Assembly (NCBI GenBank): GCA_030604905.1 | Contig: JAUVVA010000037.1 | Location: forward strand, 1 to 32,232 | Reading direction: 5' to 3' | Length of the DNA: 32,232 nucleotides | From: Verrucomicrobiota bacterium | GTDB lineage: Bacteria > Verrucomicrobiota > Verrucomicrobiia > Opitutales > Opitutaceae | Part shown: positions 6,406-12,960 of the stretch, in pieces | How positions within the stretch are numbered: the stretch's first letter is position 1 | Layout of the letters: each line of letters starts with the position of its first letter | Made by a program: the position numbers and the translations under genes | Notes under the pieces: generated by a model | Seen by the model: the letters and a program-made list of their open reading frames with translations, nothing else | Database searches by the model: none | What the model was told of the DNA's origin: nothing

Positions 6406-6421
6406 GTGTTCAGCCGAACAC
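6406..6421. promoter_or_regulatory. LexA box upstream of lexA (SOS operator)
   Basis: GTGTTCAGCCGAACAC is a perfect 6+6 palindrome around AGCC. It contains the TGTTC-N4-GAACA operator known for verrucomicrobial LexA, centred about 21 bases before the lexA ATG at 6435. A possible -35 element TTGCGG sits at 6398-6403. A -10 with 17-base spacing would be the weak CATCGT at 6421-6426. The box would then occupy the promoter spacer, which fits autorepression. No second full box was found before imuA, imuB or dnaE2, so one operator may govern the whole cassette. Confidence 0.87.
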
Positions 6422-6434
6422 ATCGTAGGCGACC

Positions 6435-7043
6435 ATGCTCACCGAGAAACAGGAGGCCATTCTTGATTTCGTCCGCGCCATCCAGGCCGAGCGCGGCATC
6501 CCGCCCAGCACGCGCGACATCCAGCGCCAGTTCGGCTACGCCAGCCAAAACGCCGCCATGAACCACCTCCGCGCCCTGGCCAAGAAGGGCGTCATCGAGC
6601 AGATCGACGGCCGCACCTGGGGCCTCAAGGCCCGCCTCGTGCAGGCCCACCTCTTCACCGTGCCCGTCTACGGCAGCATCCCCGCCGGCCGCCCCACCGC
6701 TGAAGAGCAAAGCGCCGAGGAGACGCTCCAGCTCGATCCCAGCCTCTTCGGCCTGCCCGCCCGCGCCGCGAACCGGCTCTGGGCCCTGCGCGTCCGCGGC
6801 GACTCCATGACCGGCGCCCACATCCTCGACGGCGACCTCGCCCTCCTCGAACGCCGCGAGCCCCGCGCCGGCGACATCATCGCCGCGCTCGTCAACGGCA
6901 CCGAGACCACGCTCAAGCGCCTGCTCTACCGCGGCCGCGCCGCCATCCTTCACGCCGAGAACCCGCGCTACGCCGACATCGTGCCCGAGAGCGGTCTCGA
7001 GTGCCAGGGCGTGCTCGTCGGCCTCATCCGCCGCACCACCTAG
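6435..7043 (+). CDS. lexA: LexA repressor, SOS master regulator
   Basis: This 202-residue protein has an N-terminal winged helix (about 1-65; STRDIQRQFGYASQNAAMNHLRALAKKG holds the recognition helix). A hinge follows, then an S24-type self-cleavage domain. The autocleavage bond is Ala84-Gly85 in SIPAGRP, the nucleophile is Ser124 in GDSM and the general base is Lys161 in TTLKRL. All are intact, so RecA-stimulated self-cleavage should work. The gene begins the imuA-imuB-dnaE2 cassette and has its own operator at 6406-6421. The ATG at 6435 is preceded by a weak AGG. Some annotation systems would call it transcriptional repressor LexA, and nothing suggests a phage CI-type protein. Confidence 0.97.
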   Translation: MLTEKQEAILDFVRAIQAERGIPPSTRDIQRQFGYASQNAAMNHLRALAKKGVIEQIDGRTWGLKARLVQAHLFTVPVYGSIPAGRPTAEEQSAEETLQLDPSLFGLPARAANRLWALRVRGDSMTGAHILDGDLALLERREPRAGDIIAALVNGTETTLKRLLYRGRAAILHAENPRYADIVPESGLECQGVLVGLIRRTT

Positions 7044-7129
7044 TGGCACGGCGTCCCGCCCGTGGGCTTGTCCCCGTAGCATGGGCGTCTCGCCCATGGG
7101 ATCGTCGTGGCATGGGCGTCCCGCCCATG
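7044..7129. repeat. Three tandem GC-palindromic repeats (about 32-bp unit)
   Basis: Starting directly after the lexA stop, three diverged copies of one unit follow each other at about 7046-7064, 7079-7098 and 7109-7129. The core is CATGGGCGTCCCGCCCATG, an 8-bp inverted repeat around TCC. The cores are joined by spacers like GGGCTTGTCC and GGATCGTCG. As RNA each core can fold into a strong hairpin. The same unit occurs in frame inside dnaE2 at 9844-9897. It fills much of the 217-base lexA-imuA gap. Confidence 0.92.
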
Positions 7130-7260
7130 ATCCGTGTTCGATTTCTCCACTCTGCCTGCCCCCTCCGCTCCGCCCGCCCCGTCCGCCTCTTTCCCCCGTC
7201 CGCACCGGCGCTCCAGCCGCGCCTCCCCCTCCACCCTTCGCCCTCTCGCATGCACCCGCC

Positions 7261-7908
7261 GTGCCCGCTCCCGCCACCATCGCCTCTCTCCGCCAGATGC
7301 TGGCCGCTCGCTTCCCGCAAGCCGAGCGCCCGGCCGGCGGCCGCGTGCTGCCCACCGGCGTGCCCGCGGTCGATGACGCCGCCGGCGGCTTGCCGCGCCA
7401 CGCGCTGAGCGAGCTCGTGCGCCCCGCGCCCGCCGCGGGCGCGCAGCTTTTCCTCGCGCAACTGCTCGCCACCACCCGCGCCCTGCCCGCCCGCGTCGCG
7501 CTCATCGACGCCGCCGACCACTTCGACCCGCAATCCATCCCGCCCGCCGAGCTGCAACACCTCGTCTGGGTGCGCTGCCGTTCCCACGCCGACGCCTTGC
7601 CCGTCGCCGACCTCCTCGCCCGCGAGGCCAGCCTCGACCTCGTCGCGCTCGATCTCTCCGCCACGCCCCTGTCCGTCCTGCGCCGCACGCCCGCCACGGC
7701 CTGGTATCGCCTGCAGCGCGCCGTCGAGCAGACCGACCTTGCCCTTCTCGTCCTCACGCCGGCCCCGCTCGTGCCCAGCGCGCAACTCCGCCTGCGCCTC
7801 GACGGCGCCCACGCCCTCTCCGCCCTCGCCCTCGAGCGCCCCCACCTCGCCATCGACCTCGAAGTCTCCCGCGAGCGCCAGCGCCTCGCCGCCTCCGCCG
7901 CGGCCTGA
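7261..7908 (+). CDS. imuA: ImuA, RecA-like accessory protein of the SOS mutagenesis cassette
   Basis: This protein is 215 residues from GTG 7261. The frame is open further upstream, but there it reads through the palindromic repeats, so the GTG directly before the conserved TIASLRQMLAARFP start is preferred. The ImuA/SulA-like pattern is clear: LPTGVPAVDDAAGGLPRHALSEL (30-52), VALIDAADHFDP (79-90), LVWVRCR (101-107) and LDLVALDLS (125-133, Walker-B-like). Where a RecA fold would have a GKT P-loop the sequence is RPAPAAGAQLFLA, so ATP binding is doubtful. ImuA is known to be required for ImuB/DnaE2-dependent mutagenesis. The gene sits between lexA and imuB in the expected order. Confidence 0.87.
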   Translation: MPAPATIASLRQMLAARFPQAERPAGGRVLPTGVPAVDDAAGGLPRHALSELVRPAPAAGAQLFLAQLLATTRALPARVALIDAADHFDPQSIPPAELQHLVWVRCRSHADALPVADLLAREASLDLVALDLSATPLSVLRRTPATAWYRLQRAVEQTDLALLVLTPAPLVPSAQLRLRLDGAHALSALALERPHLAIDLEVSRERQRLAASAAA

Positions 7909-7926
7909 GCGCCGCGCCTGCTCCCC

Positions 7927-7966
7927 GATCAGTCCGATCCGTCAGATCAGTCCGATCCGCCCGATT
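7927..7966. repeat. 9-bp GATC tandem repeats between imuA and imuB
   Basis: GATC recurs every 9 bases at 7927, 7936, 7945 and 7954, then GATT at 7963. The units are GATCAGTCC, GATCCGTCA, GATCAGTCC and GATCCGCCC. This is the same family as the array at 793-855. It occupies most of the 70-base gap between imuA and imuB and ends 13 bases before the imuB ATG. Confidence 0.9.
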
Positions 7967-7978
7967 CCACCTCGCGCC

Positions 7979-9463
7979 ATGCTGGCCGTCCTCCACGTCG
8001 CCGACTTCGCCCTGCAGGCCCTGCTCCGCGCCGAGCCCGCCCGCCCCTCCGCCGCGCCCGCGGCGCTCATCGATCCGCACTCCCGCCCCGCCCGCGTGCT
8101 CGCCTGCACCCCTGCCGCGCACGCCCGCGGCGTTTCCCCCGGCCAGACCAGCGCGCAAGCCCTCGCCCGCTGCGAAAACCTCCGCCTCCTCCCACCGCGC
8201 CCCGAGGCCGAGGCGGAGGCCGCCGCCGGCCTGCTCGCGGCCGCCTTCTCGCTCTCGCCTTTCGTCGAGGCCACCGCGCCCGGCGTGTGCACGATCCAGA
8301 TCGAGGCGCTCCCGCCCGCGCGCCGCGAGCCCGCCCTGCGCCAAGCCCTCGCGCACCTCGACTCCCTCGGCCTCGCCGCCACCGCCGGCACCGGCTCCAC
8401 CCCGCTGCTCGCGCTCTACGCCGCCCGCCACGCCACCTGGCCCGACGCACCGCTCTTCCTGCCCGACAACGAGCGCGCCTTCCTCGCCCGCCTGCCCCTC
8501 GCCACCGCCGAGCCCCCACCCGAGCTCGCGCCCATCCTCGCGAGCTGGGGCCTGCGCACGCTCGGCGACCTCACCGACCTCTCCAAGGCCTCCATCGCCC
8601 AGCGCCTCGGCCCCGCCGGCCTCGCCCTCTGGGAACGCGCCGCCGGCCAGACCAGCCGCCCGCTCCACACCGTCGCCCCGCCGCAGGTCTTCGTCGCCGA
8701 GACCGCGCTCGAGCACGAGCTCGAGACGCTCGAGCCCCTGCTCTTTCTCGCGCGCCGCTTCCTCGACCGCCTCGCGCTCGAGATCCAAAACGCCTCCCTC
8801 GCCGCCGCCGAGATCGTGCTCCAGCTCACGCTCGCCGACGACACCCGCCACGTCCGCACGCTCCGCCTGCCCGAGCCCTCCACACGCGCCGACCTCCTCT
8901 TCGCCGCGCTCCAAACCTACCTCGAAACCCTCCGCGCCCCCGCCCCCGTCGTCGGCCTGCGCCTCGCGCTCACGCCCGCCCGCGCCGGCGCGCGCCAGTC
9001 CGGCCTCTTCGACCGCGCCCTCCGCGATCCGCACCGCTTCGCCGAGACCCTCGCGCGCGTCGCCGCCCTCGTCGGCGCCGAGCGCGTCGGCACGCCCGAG
9101 CTGCAAAACACCCACCGTCCCGACGCCTTCACGCTCGTTGCCCCCGCGTCCGACATCGCCCCGCCGCCGCCCGCCGCCTTTCGCCATCCGCCGCAGGGCT
9201 TGGTGCTCTGCCGGCACCGTCCGCCCCGCCCGGTGAACGTGCGCCTCGCGCCCGACACGCCGCGCCCGCTTGCCCTCGAAGGCCCCGCGCTCGTCGGCGA
9301 CATCAGCGCCTGCGCCGGCCCCTGGCGCGCCTCCGGCGATTGGTGGCAAGCCGACCAACACTGGTGGCGCGAGGAGTGGGACGTGCAACTCGCCGCCGGC
9401 CTCGGTCTGCACCGCCTCCTCCGCACCGCCGAGGGCTGGTTCATCGAGGGCGAATACGACTGA
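7979..9463 (+). CDS. imuB: ImuB, Y-family polymerase-like clamp adaptor
   Basis: This protein is 494 residues from ATG 7979. It keeps the Y-family outline (an N-terminal palm/fingers-like part, a helix-hairpin-helix-like LASWGLRTLGDLTDL at 188-201, and a little-finger-like part at about 230-335). The acidic polymerase motifs are replaced: the N-terminus reads LHVADFALQALLR where active enzymes have a DxDxF-type motif, and no SIDE-like motif is seen. It should therefore be catalytically inactive, as is typical of ImuB. A clamp-binding motif, QSGLF at 340-344, follows. The Trp-rich C-terminus (DWWQADQHWWREEWDVQ and GWFIEGEYD) is typical of the family. The role is to bring DnaE2 and ImuA to the beta clamp at lesions. 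Confidence 0.93.
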   Translation: MLAVLHVADFALQALLRAEPARPSAAPAALIDPHSRPARVLACTPAAHARGVSPGQTSAQALARCENLRLLPPRPEAEAEAAAGLLAAAFSLSPFVEATAPGVCTIQIEALPPARREPALRQALAHLDSLGLAATAGTGSTPLLALYAARHATWPDAPLFLPDNERAFLARLPLATAEPPPELAPILASWGLRTLGDLTDLSKASIAQRLGPAGLALWERAAGQTSRPLHTVAPPQVFVAETALEHELETLEPLLFLARRFLDRLALEIQNASLAAAEIVLQLTLADDTRHVRTLRLPEPSTRADLLFAALQTYLETLRAPAPVVGLRLALTPARAGARQSGLFDRALRDPHRFAETLARVAALVGAERVGTPELQNTHRPDAFTLVAPASDIAPPPPAAFRHPPQGLVLCRHRPPRPVNVRLAPDTPRPLALEGPALVGDISACAGPWRASGDWWQADQHWWREEWDVQLAAGLGLHRLLRTAEGWFIEGEYD

Positions 9464-9483: not shown

Positions 9484-9511
9484 GTCATTCGTCATTAGTC
9501 ATTAGTCATTC
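9484..9511. repeat. Heptamer repeats between imuB and dnaE2
   Basis: Four consecutive 7-base units GTCATTC, GTCATTA, GTCATTA and GTCATTC lie in the 67-base gap between the imuB stop and the dnaE2 ATG at 9531. The AT content is well above that of the surroundings. No promoter or operator can be read with confidence in this gap. Confidence 0.88.
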
Positions 9512-9530: not shown

Positions 9531-12500
9531 ATGTCCGTCTACATCGAGCTCCACGCCGCCAGCGCCTTCAGTTTCCTGCGCGGCGCCTCCATGCCGGCCG
9601 ACCTCGCCGCCGAGGCCGCGCGGCTGGGCCTGCCCGGGCTCGCCCTGCTCGACCGCGACGGCCTCTACTCCGCGCCGCGCCTCCACGCCGCCGCCCGCGA
9701 GGCCGGTCTGCGCCCGATCGTCGGCGCCGAGATCACGCTCGCCGACGGCTCCGTGCTGCCGCTCCTCGTGCAAAACCGCAGCGGCTACCAAAACCTCTGC
9801 CGCCTCCTCAGCACCACCAAGCTCGAGCCGCGCACGTCCCCAAGTGGCATGGGCGTCCCGCCCATGGGCTCGTCCTGCTCGGGCGTCCCGCCCGGGCAGC
9901 CTCCCTCCGATCTCCCTCCCGGCTCCGATCCCCGCGCCCGCAAGCGCCCCTGCTTCGCCACCTGGGCCGAGCTCGCCGCCCACGCCGAGGGCCTAGTCGC
10001 CCTCACCGGCGACGAGGACGGCCCCCTCCTCCGCGCCTGGCGCGCCCGCGGCGAGGCCGGCGCCGCCGAAGCCCTCGACCAGCTCGCGCGCGTCTTCGGC
10101 CCCGGCCGCCTCTACGTCGAGTTGCAACGCCGCCGCGCGCGAGGCGAGGAGCCCGCCCAGCGCATGCTCGCCGACCTCGCCGCCGCCCGCGGCCTGCCGC
10201 CCCTCGCCACCGGCGGCGTGCTCCACGCCACCCGCGCCGAGCGCGACATCGCCGATGTCTTCACCTGCCTGCGACACCACACCACGCTCGACGCCGCCGG
10301 CCGCCTGCTCGCGATCAACGCCGAGCGCCACCTCCGCTCCGCGCGCGAGATGAGCGCGCTCTTCGCCGACCACCCCGAGGCCCTGCGCAACACCCTGCGC
10401 CTCGCCGAGCGCCTCGAGTTCGGCCTGCACGACCTCGGCTACGAATTCCCCTCCTTTCCCGTGCCCGAGGGCGAGACGCAGGAAAACTTCCTCCGCGCCC
10501 GCACCTTCGAGGGCGCCCGCGCCCGCTTCCCCACCCTCACCCCACAGGTCGTCGCGCAACTCGAACGCGAGCTCGCCCTCATCACCAAGCTCGGTTTCCC
10601 CGGCTATTTCCTCCTCGTCTGGGATATCTGCCGCCGCTGCCGCGATCGCGGCATCCTCGTGCAAGGCCGAGGCTCCGCCGCCAACAGCGCCGTCTGCTAC
10701 GCCCTCGGCATCACCGCGGTGGACCCCATCGCGCGCAGCCTCCTCTTCGAGCGCTTCCTCAGCGAGGGCCGCGTCGGCACCGACGGCCGCCCCTCCTGGC
10801 CCGACATCGACCTCGACCTCCCCAGCGGCCCGCTGCGCGAGTCCGTCATCCAGGACGTGTATGCGCGCTACGGCCGCCGCGGCGCCGCCATGGTGGCCAA
10901 CGTCATCACCTACCGCGGCCGCGGCGCCACGCGCGAGGTCGGCAAGGTGCTCGGCATCCCCGAGGACGTCGCCGACCGCTTCTCCGCGCTCTACGCCAAC
11001 GGCGACTTCCCGCAGACGCTCGAGCTCTCGCGCCAGATCGAGGCCGCCGGCCTGCCCGCCAATCACCCGCGCCTGCCCGCCCTGCTCTCCCTCTGCCGGC
11101 GCCTCCCCGGCCTGCCCCGCCACCTCGGCCAGCACTCCGGCGGCATGATCCTCTGCCCCGGCAAGCTCGACCGCGTCGTCCCGCTCGAAAACGCCTCCAT
11201 GGACGACCGCAGCGTCGTGCAATGGGACAAGGACGACTGCGAGGACCTCGGCCTCGTGAAGATCGACCTCCTCGGCCTCGGCATGATGGCCGTGCTCCAG
11301 GACTGCCAAGGCCTCTGCGCGCAGAACGGCCGCCCCTTCGAGCTGCACACCGTGCCGCAGGAGGACGCCCAGACCTTCGAGGTCATGCGCCGCGCCGAGA
11401 CCATCGGCGTCTTCCAGATCGAATCGCGCGCCCAGATGGCCACCCTGCCCCGGCTCCAGCCCCGCACCTTCTACGATGTCGCCATCGCCGTCGCCATCAT
11501 CCGCCCCGGCCCCATCACCGGCGGTCTCATCGCCCCGTTGATCGAGCGCCGCGCGTATCCGGATAAACCCTACACCTGCATCGCCCCCGAGGTGGACGCG
11601 CTCGTGCGCCCCATCCTCGGCCGCACCTTTGGCGTCATCCTTTTCCAGGAGCAGATGCTCGGCCTCGCCATGCAGCTCGGCGGCTTCAGCGGCTCCGAGG
11701 CCGAGGAGCTGCGCCGCGCGCTCGGCTTTCACCGCGACGACAATCGCCTGCGCCGGGCCACGCTCAAGCTGCGCGAGGCCCTGCGCGCCCGCGGCCACTC
11801 CGAGCAGGTGGTCGAGGCCGTCAGCGCCGCCTCCGCCTCCTTCGCGCTCTACGGTTTCCCGGAGAGCCACGCCATCTCCTTCGCGCTCCTCGCCTACGCC
11901 AGCACCTGGCTGAAGGTGCACCGCCCCGCGGAGTTCTACGCCGCCCTGCTCAACAACCAGCCCATGGGCTTCTACTCCGCCGCCACGCTCGTGCAGGACG
12001 CGCGCCGCCGCGGCGTGAAAGTCCACCCCGTCTGCGTGCGCCACTCGGACTGGGATTGCACCGTGGAGGGCCCGCAAACGATCCGCATCGGCCTGCGCTA
12101 CGTGAAAGGCCTGCGCGAGGCGCGCGCTCACGAGCTGGTGCGCGCCCGCGCCGAGGCGCCCTTCGCCTCGCTTGGCGATTTTCTCCGCCGTGTCGCGCTC
12201 TCCGCCGCCGAGCGCCGCGCCCTCGCCGCCGTCGGCGCGCTCAACAGCTTCGCCGGCCACCGCCGCGCCGCGCTCTGGCAGGTCGAGGCCGCCTGGTCCG
12301 CCGAGGAGACGCTCTTCCAGCACGCGGGCGGCCTGCTCGACGACGCCGACGCGGCCGAGCCCCTCGCGCCGATGGCCCCGCACGAACGCGTGTCGGCCGA
12401 TTTTATCGGGCTCGGCCTCACCGTCGGCGCCCACCCCATGGCCCTGGTGCGCGAGCGCCTGCCCGACATCTGGCGCGCCGCCGACCTCGCCCTCGCGCGC

Positions 12501-12788
12501 GACGGCGAGCAGGTGGTGCTCGGCGGGAGCGTGATCTGCCGCCAGCGCCCCGGCACCGCCAAAGGCACGGTGTTTATCTCGCTGGAGGACGAGACCGGCG
12601 TGGCCAACGCCATCGTGCACTCCGCGCTCTTCGAGCGCCATCGCCTCGTGATCAACGAGGAGCCCTCGCTCCGCATCACCGGCCGCCTCCAAAACCGCGG
12701 CGGCGTCATCCACGTGAAGGCCGAGACCATTGAGGCCCTCCGCGTCGGCGACGCCGTCCCCGCGCAAAGCTCCCACGATTTTCACTGA
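9531..12788 (+). CDS. dnaE2: DnaE2 (ImuC), error-prone DNA polymerase III alpha subunit
   Basis: This protein is 1085 residues from ATG 9531, the usual length for DnaE2. It has a PHP domain at about 1-270 (IELHAASAFSFLRGAS at 5-20), a C-family polymerase core with FPGYFLLVWDI and GRGSAANSAVCYALG, catalytic Asp427 and Asp429 in PDIDLDLPSG, and a third Asp579 in KIDLLGLG. Tandem HhH and an OB fold lie near the C-terminus (VVLGGSVICRQRPGTAKGTVFISLEDETG). Motifs such as GLPRHLGQHSGGMIL mark the DnaE2 branch. It carries out translesion synthesis with ImuA and ImuB. An insertion at about residues 100-135 is partly encoded by palindromic repeat DNA (9844-9897), giving GMGVPPMGSSCSGVPPG, and the frame stays open. 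Confidence 0.96.
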   Translation: MSVYIELHAASAFSFLRGASMPADLAAEAARLGLPGLALLDRDGLYSAPRLHAAAREAGLRPIVGAEITLADGSVLPLLVQNRSGYQNLCRLLSTTKLEPRTSPSGMGVPPMGSSCSGVPPGQPPSDLPPGSDPRARKRPCFATWAELAAHAEGLVALTGDEDGPLLRAWRARGEAGAAEALDQLARVFGPGRLYVELQRRRARGEEPAQRMLADLAAARGLPPLATGGVLHATRAERDIADVFTCLRHHTTLDAAGRLLAINAERHLRSAREMSALFADHPEALRNTLRLAERLEFGLHDLGYEFPSFPVPEGETQENFLRARTFEGARARFPTLTPQVVAQLERELALITKLGFPGYFLLVWDICRRCRDRGILVQGRGSAANSAVCYALGITAVDPIARSLLFERFLSEGRVGTDGRPSWPDIDLDLPSGPLRESVIQDVYARYGRRGAAMVANVITYRGRGATREVGKVLGIPEDVADRFSALYANGDFPQTLELSRQIEAAGLPANHPRLPALLSLCRRLPGLPRHLGQHSGGMILCPGKLDRVVPLENASMDDRSVVQWDKDDCEDLGLVKIDLLGLGMMAVLQDCQGLCAQNGRPFELHTVPQEDAQTFEVMRRAETIGVFQIESRAQMATLPRLQPRTFYDVAIAVAIIRPGPITGGLIAPLIERRAYPDKPYTCIAPEVDALVRPILGRTFGVILFQEQMLGLAMQLGGFSGSEAEELRRALGFHRDDNRLRRATLKLREALRARGHSEQVVEAVSAASASFALYGFPESHAISFALLAYASTWLKVHRPAEFYAALLNNQPMGFYSAATLVQDARRRGVKVHPVCVRHSDWDCTVEGPQTIRIGLRYVKGLREARAHELVRARAEAPFASLGDFLRRVALSAAERRALAAVGALNSFAGHRRAALWQVEAAWSAEETLFQHAGGLLDDADAAEPLAPMAPHERVSADFIGLGLTVGAHPMALVRERLPDIWRAADLALARDGEQVVLGGSVICRQRPGTAKGTVFISLEDETGVANAIVHSALFERHRLVINEEPSLRITGRLQNRGGVIHVKAETIEALRVGDAVPAQSSHDFH
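9844..9897. repeat. In-frame copies of the palindromic repeat inside dnaE2
   Basis: Two cores lie here: CATGGGCGTCCCGCCCATG at 9848-9866 and a variant beginning CTCGGGCGTCCCGCC at 9879. The spacer GGGCTCGTCC between them matches the spacer of the lexA-imuA array. They fall in the coding sequence at about residues 105-122, in a stretch that interrupts the usual DnaE2 alignment between SGYQNLCRLLS and FATWAELAAHAEGLVALTG. Confidence 0.9.
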
Positions 12789-12834: not shown

Positions 12835-12859
12835 CCAATGTTCGTAATACGAACATTGG
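12835..12859. repeat. 25-bp palindrome, copy 1
   Basis: Arms CCAATGTTCGT and ACGAACATTGG are perfect complements around a 3-base AAT centre. Flanking GAGC and GCTC extend the symmetry with one extra C. The core contains TGTTC and GAACA half-sites separated by 7 bases, against 4 in the LexA box. No T-run follows, so it is not a typical intrinsic terminator. The copy at 12936 is identical. Confidence 0.93.
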
Positions 12860-12935: not shown

Positions 12936-12960
12936 CCAATGTTCGTAATACGAACATTGG
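12936..12960. repeat. 25-bp palindrome, copy 2
   Basis: This is base-for-base identical to the palindrome at 12835-12859 and begins 101 bases after it. It lies 141 bases before the queA start. Sequences outside the 25 bases differ between the copies, so the conserved unit is the palindrome itself. Confidence 0.93.

Follow-up and report, generated by a model that had tools for sequence, protein, structure and literature searches.

RAYT-type HUH tyrosine transposases are thought to recognise the hairpin of REP elements on single-stranded DNA and to move the REP. GTAG-tagged REPs were defined by Di Nocera 2013 (PMC3733652), and according to excerpts of that paper most GTAG-20 units of O. terrae carry GTGG. 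The excerpts describe intragenic GTAG units as most numerous in O. terrae, place REPs within both uvrA genes of this species and name DnaE2 genes among the REP-tagged genes, the species not being given in the text. They also discuss flexible loops, speculate on mutators and regard REPs in repair genes as possibly selected. Furthermore, they state that the stop codon of a flanking gene is often provided by a REP end, and they report insertion at about one site only for recB of two Xanthomonas. REPs as in-frame gene inserts are thus not a new idea, having been published in 2013. In the RepRanger main text (PMC12306157), the terms Opitut, Verrucomicrob and intragenic are all absent.

Here, a repeat within dnaE2 of an Opitutaceae genome (4.19 Mb, 234 contigs, 81% complete) was analyzed. 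The window, i.e., the whole stretch of DNA analyzed, comprises 32,232 nucleotides (contig C158).

REP units in the lexA-imuA-imuB-dnaE2 cassette

The cassette and its REP units comprise the following features.

6407..6420, + strand: probable LexA box TGTTCAGCCGAACA upstream of lexA, exact TGTTC-N4-GAACA
6435..7043, + strand: lexA, with LexA_DNA_bind and Peptidase_S24
7043..7065, + strand: REP unit after lexA, core one base short
7076..7098, + strand: REP unit in the lexA-imuA intergenic region, head GTAG by sequence
7107..7129, + strand: REP unit in the lexA-imuA intergenic region, head GTGG by sequence
7255..7908, + strand: imuA, start codon inferred; NF033429 match (E 8.7e-8) below its cut-off, Pfam match absent
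7981..9463, + strand: imuB, named by gene order alone (between imuA and dnaE2), no family match
9531..12788, + strand: dnaE2, error-prone DNA polymerase, 1085 aa, above the cut-off of NCBIfam NF004225
9844..9897, + strand: in-frame REP doublet in dnaE2, 54 nt or 18 codons, exact 20-mer plus second core
9844..9866, + strand: REP unit 1, head GTGG (9844-9847) plus palindrome CATGGGCG-TCC-CGCCCATG
9875..9899, + strand: REP unit 2, degenerate, stem CTGCTCGGGCG-TCC-CGCCCGGGCAG, without GTGG head

The sequence at 6407-6420 exactly matches a LexA motif of Verrucomicrobia. Matches to this motif with at most two mismatches were not above chance in the window (7 versus 4.9 expected). TGTTC-N4-GAACA at this position would fit an SOS-regulated lexA-imuA-imuB-dnaE2 cassette. 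The dnaE2 product contains PHP, DNA_pol3_alpha, finger and HHH_6 domains; together with the NF004225 match, they bear out the preliminary description, in which reading frame and polymerase domains were taken to be intact.

Three exact copies of the 20-mer GCATGGGCGTCYCGCCCATG are located at 7079, 7110 and 9847 of the window, with 0.01 occurrences expected from shuffling, and a second core with altered arms, GGGCGTCCCGCCC, lies at 9881 within dnaE2. Thus, the repeat unit between lexA and imuA is indeed also present at DnaE2 residues 105-122, as had been described. Counted from the ATG at 9531, these residues read SGMGVPPMGSSCSGVPPG; the peptide given earlier was correctly placed and lacked the first S. 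The limits of the doublet (9844..9897) are accurate to a few bases. The head of unit 1 agrees with the consensus of the 148 copies listed from the genome, while unit 2 has lost its GTGG head and differs in its arms, which counts against REP insertion as the explanation. The copy after the lexA stop is likewise degenerate, with one mismatch in the core at 7049. The first G of its GTGG head is common to the lexA stop codon TAG (7041-7043), a flanking stop at a REP end as described in the excerpts of PMC3733652.

According to folding, a REP copy of the window has an 8-bp stem and a TCC loop. As single-stranded DNA, the dnaE2 insert folds into two adjoining hairpins (-22.1 kcal/mol, z of -4.5 against dinucleotide shuffles). 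Compared with stretches of the same gene, the folding of the window's DnaE2 loop was unexceptional, since 13 of 60 controls folded equally well.

Other repeats were observed around the cassette. A 21-nt near-perfect palindrome, AATGTTCGTAATACGAACATT, is present in two identical copies (12837-12857 and 12938-12958; 0 expected by chance) between dnaE2 and the next gene, which is queA-like as judged by inspection. A 9-bp iterated unit starting with GATC forms arrays at 784-858 and at 7918-7974, the latter between imuA and imuB. Iterated GTCATT(A/C) units lie immediately 5' of dnaE2 (9484-9510), and similar GGTCATT runs are also found in L003, one of the RAYT loci described below.

A dispersed REP family with in-frame copies

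In the whole genome, the 20-mer yielded 149 matches with at most three mismatches, compared with 3 for the reversed control. Stretches fetched around the listed matches contained 148 REP copies in 93 clusters, dispersed over many contigs and in both orientations; the whole genome has somewhat more. Among the 93 clusters listed, 54 consist of a single unit and 39 of two or more units; the commonest start-to-start distances are 29-31 bp for units of opposite and 30-33 bp for units of the same orientation. An unpaired GTGG directly precedes the palindrome in 125 of the 148 copies listed, and the opposite end lacks a conserved motif. The third base of the stem covaries with the base opposite: of 148 copies, 71 have C-G and 58 have T-A, the other 19 being mostly unpaired. 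The family thus shows a tetranucleotide head, a short stem and loop, stem variants, a high dispersed copy number and a mostly intergenic location, as described for the GTAG class, whose stems measure 6-13 bp.

RAYT genes, which also belong to the description of this class, are present in the genome. Four PF01797 matches were found, three of which (L001, L002 and L003) lie above the cut-off of NCBIfam NF047646 and one (L004) below. The three are REP-associated tyrosine transposases (REP_Tyr_transpos), each flanked on both sides by other, similarly built REPs: GGAG-CGCCGGGC-TCCT-GCCCGGC at L001, GGAG-CGACGGGGC-TCCC-GCCCCGTCG at L002 and GTAG-CCACGGCTG-TCCC-CAGCCGTG at L003. The REP family of the window was absent from all four PF01797 loci (2.0 to 3.2 kb each). 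Since the genome is 81% complete, the cognate RAYT gene may be missing from the assembly.

The load of this REP varies strongly within the family Opitutaceae. With at most one mismatch, 43 of 150 sampled genomes contained at least one match, with 222 in G003, 157 in G046 and 140 in the window's genome, compared with 0 to 10 in each of the five genomes of the same genus in the sample. A subfamily with the loop GAC/GAY for GTC, e.g., GCACGGGCGACTCGCCCGTG, was noticed in three genomes of one genus (G002, G051 and G080), with some units in inverted pairs.

Clusters were called in frame if a coding signal was found in one frame on both flanks and the stretch was free of stops, the coding model being trained on the window's genome. 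Ten of the 93 clusters listed read through genes in this manner. One is the dnaE2 doublet, through which the coding signal continues; the others are as follows.

L156: uvrA, gene cut by the contig start
L165: flavin-dependent oxidoreductase or halogenase-like gene
L167: SNF2 helicase, REP inside the SNF2 domain
L174: acyltransferase-containing protein
L185: FlhF-like gene, weak match
L197: DUF255 protein
L198: DinG/Rad3-like helicase
L209: waaA, WaaA match spanning the site
L210: folP, REP inside the pterin-binding domain

The flanking coding signal is weak at L185 and L209 (0.04 to 0.07), of which L209 is backed by the match across the site and L185 by no such match. Two solved structures lack the REP segment: residues 108-140 of the UvrA query face four residues in UvrA, and DHPS residues 215-243 face ten in dihydropteroate synthase. 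Among the 92 clusters for which both flanks were available, 10 had such a position in frame inside a gene, in contrast to 447 of 1000 random stretches subjected to the same test in the same DNA. Thus, the REP strongly avoids genes.

In eight of the ten in-frame clusters, the first unit reads G-M/T-G-V-P/S-P-M/V, i.e., all eight share one frame. The probability of this bias is 1.9e-5 for a frame named beforehand and about 1e-4 after choice among six, computed post hoc and with one unit, the first, counted per cluster; subsequent units use other frames too. By reading, a GTGG-headed unit contains a stop codon in none of the six frames, whereas a GTAG head gives TAG in one. An insertion that keeps the frame would therefore merely add a Gly/Pro-rich peptide. 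The genome search with the core and the count of intragenic copies by frame thus support the earlier suggestion of a repeat family that adds flexible loops to genes. For annotation, peptide runs of the GMGVPPMG kind in Opitutaceae proteins may represent REPs and not domains.

The PHP loop of DnaE2 and palindromes in other lineages

The DnaE2 closest to that of the window, with 75% identity, belongs to a MAG named Rariglobus. In 41 KRPC-type DnaE2 ORFs, the loop between GYQNLC..L and KRPC ranges from 11 to 50 residues, and it is short in DnaE2 ORFs without KRPC. Both anchors could be located in these 41 ORFs, among which four contigs are represented twice. The commonest length is 20 residues (9 of 41 by script, where the right anchor was off by one residue for L050 and L060; L050 really has 21 by eye). 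The loop of the window has 38 residues, i.e., 20 plus the 18 of the insert, so the Pro-rich flank that had been counted with the insert need not belong to it. Between aligned blocks, replicative DnaE (PDB 4jom) has 21 residues and the window's DnaE2 has 56. In an AlphaFold2 model based on 33 sequences hand-picked from the loci, the mean pLDDT was 85, and values below 50 were obtained for residues 105-131, between helices 83-98 and 145-150; the loop with the insert is thus predicted to be disordered. Since the insert occupies a loop of variable length and predicted disorder, conserved PHP sequence is not interrupted, contrary to the preliminary description. Nor is the gene essential, the domain having been described earlier as essential-looking: DnaE2 matches with E<=1e-100 were obtained in 69 of the 150 sampled family genomes, and matches at DnaE2 level in 5 of 15 genomes of the genus, so dnaE2 is dispensable in the family.

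Alignment with relatives revealed the window's REP at this site in the window alone among the 114 DnaE2 ORFs read; as predicted earlier, most relatives lack it, and it is absent from the PHP loop of the nearest ones, L036 and L037. Other palindromes in the DnaE2 ORFs were surveyed by insert and folding in 106 of the 114 ORFs, eight being excluded because of insufficient length or a missing N-terminal motif. In four pairs, a single contig appears to be represented twice, once from each of two collections (L055/L081, L036/L074, L057/L082 and L062/L079).

The same PHP loop carries other inserts. In L055 (G116), the palindrome in this loop has 324 strand matches in its genome, many sites being counted twice because they are palindromic, compared with 10 for the control. 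The family in L139 (G168) is small, with 10 matches at up to three mismatches, one of them exact and one with a single mismatch, versus 0 for the control. Thus, one PHP loop holds three repeat families, those of the window, L055 and L139. Strong GCCGGC-rich hairpins in the same loop of L057 and L058, equalled by 0 of 60 same-gene controls, are candidate repeats; for most other loops at the PHP site, folding was not significant against same-gene stretches. On a DnaE2 tree of 43 rows, L055 and L058, whose inserts at one site differ, are sisters (100/100 support); the insert type of L057 and L058 requires two changes. Two candidates were rejected. The ACPERSRR-like insert of L075 gave 5 matches with at most three mismatches, the sole exact one on the contig of its own gene. 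The pattern-A matches of L062 and L079 (one contig, 3 mismatches) are likely due to chance and were dropped from the 15 of the 114 ORFs that gave a match of any kind.

Inserts were also found at other positions of DnaE2. Near residue 164 (window numbering), one in-frame family is present in L098, L106 and L112 and another in L099, L105 and L125, all from MAGs whose names suggest soil or peat. These two families reach up to 137 and 122 strand matches per genome, versus 0 and 2 in the controls. Further inserts lie near residue 938 in L099, L112 and L125, and L109, outside the alignment, has one insert late in dnaE2. The window's own REP family is present near residue 938 in L053 (G003) as an inverted pair, the first unit of which is in the same frame (SGTGVSPVE).

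Longer inserts were noticed as well. Near residue 938 of L098, a PERSRG-type peptide is encoded in frame by a hairpin (about 80 nt, -56 kcal/mol), so this dnaE2 holds a second palindrome type besides its residue-164 insert. Around residues 848 and 938 (window numbering), L139 carries very long inserts (99 and 64 aa), with the related peptides KCQVSSNKYQETEEQPLL and QVTSSKNQEAEEQPLL.

For comparison, the DnaE1 loci of 16 genomes contained no REP match; DnaE1 of the window's genome is in pieces, and in G169 only DnaE2 was found. The comparison is biased, since most genomes were chosen for DnaE2 inserts or REP load.

Origin of the dnaE2 insert and comparison with known systems

We consider it highly probable (about 0.88) that the 54-nt stretch is a GTGG-headed REP doublet of the GTAG/RAYT class that entered dnaE2 by transposition or copying, its length being a multiple of three bases. 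The REP unit would offer a short hairpin beside an unpaired tetranucleotide, and a RAYT presumably moved it. The insertion would have hit an already variable loop between two PHP-domain helices. Since this loop is very variable, DnaE2 could still fold and the allele could escape purging. The pattern is best explained by mobility of the RAYT type, with insertions being purged unless they keep the frame and lie in a permissive loop. DnaE2 with the insert probably stays active, and the effect of the insert would be near neutral. Most likely, the insertion was selfish and near neutral, and the loop was permissive enough to tolerate it.

The repeated occurrence of palindromes in loops of DnaE2 could reflect something beyond tolerance. 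SOS genes transcribed at stalled replication may expose single-stranded DNA, into which a single-strand RAYT would insert more often, making DnaE2 loops preferred targets. This is consistent with the presence of uvrA, the DinG-like helicase gene and dnaE2 among the ten in-frame matches, with the REP array that follows lexA within the dnaE2 cassette, and with the sisters L055 and L058, whose palindromes in one loop differ, that of L055 being the proven repeat of the two. A bias towards replication and repair genes is likewise reported in the excerpts of Di Nocera 2013 (PMC3733652). However, six of the ten in-frame matches are in genes unrelated to DNA (folP, waaA and others), and a very variable loop as the recurrent site is what tolerance alone predicts; we consider such targeting unlikely. 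A wider version, in which unrelated REP families across Verrucomicrobiota repeatedly land in a few DnaE2 loops, chiefly the PHP loop, because these are both single-stranded SOS targets and tolerant, appears equally doubtful. If it were true, the mutation-making polymerase itself would have been repeatedly lengthened by mobile palindromes.

It is improbable that the inserts were selected for altering DnaE2 through mutation rate, partner binding or mRNA stability. Palindromes do occur in several lineages and at several DnaE2 loops, but the inserted peptides differ among lineages, that of the window is predicted to be disordered, and the nearest relatives L036 and L037 lack the REP. Local slippage or tandem duplication could account for the doublet in dnaE2 and for same-orientation clusters with 30-33 bp spacing. 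It is nevertheless very improbable as the source of the dnaE2 segment, since copies with an asymmetric, conserved head are scattered in both orientations across many contigs; of the two origins named in the preliminary description, mobile or slippage-generated, the former therefore fits the dispersed family and the latter does not. An assembly or frame artefact in this fragmented, incomplete genome (234 contigs, 81% complete) of inferred metagenome origin is hardly credible, given that the coding signal passes through the insert and that this REP family is also found in frame, at another loop, in the DnaE2 of G003, a genome consisting of a single contig.

Both the element and its location within dnaE2 are thus of kinds already known. 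Like the Rickettsia palindromic elements (RPE), as treated in the excerpts of PMC3733652, the window's family consists of palindromes inserted in frame into protein genes. RPE differ in that they carry a CGTC tag and belong to a class without a dedicated transposase, whereas here the terminus is GTGG and RAYTs are present. The paired units of the window's genome resemble REPIN/BIME elements; the dnaE2 copy, however, consists of two units in the same orientation, one of them degenerate, and not of an inverted pair. Closest is GTAG-20 of O. terrae, which, according to the excerpts of PMC3733652, shares the short palindrome, one unpaired tetranucleotide that is mostly GTGG, and the occurrence in dimers and clusters. 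The REP of the window is likely GTAG-20, and DnaE2 of O. terrae was likely already among the 2013 examples. The present analysis adds further Verrucomicrobiota to that record of intragenic REPs, which comprised O. terrae and other species, and shows a strongly preferred frame. Whether repair genes tolerate or attract REPs was asked in 2013, and no later answer was found in the open-access literature searched; one loop with different inserts in related hosts is a natural series in which this can be asked. Compared with the excerpts of PMC3733652, what is new here is recurrence, i.e., the use of one DnaE2 loop by palindromes of different families.
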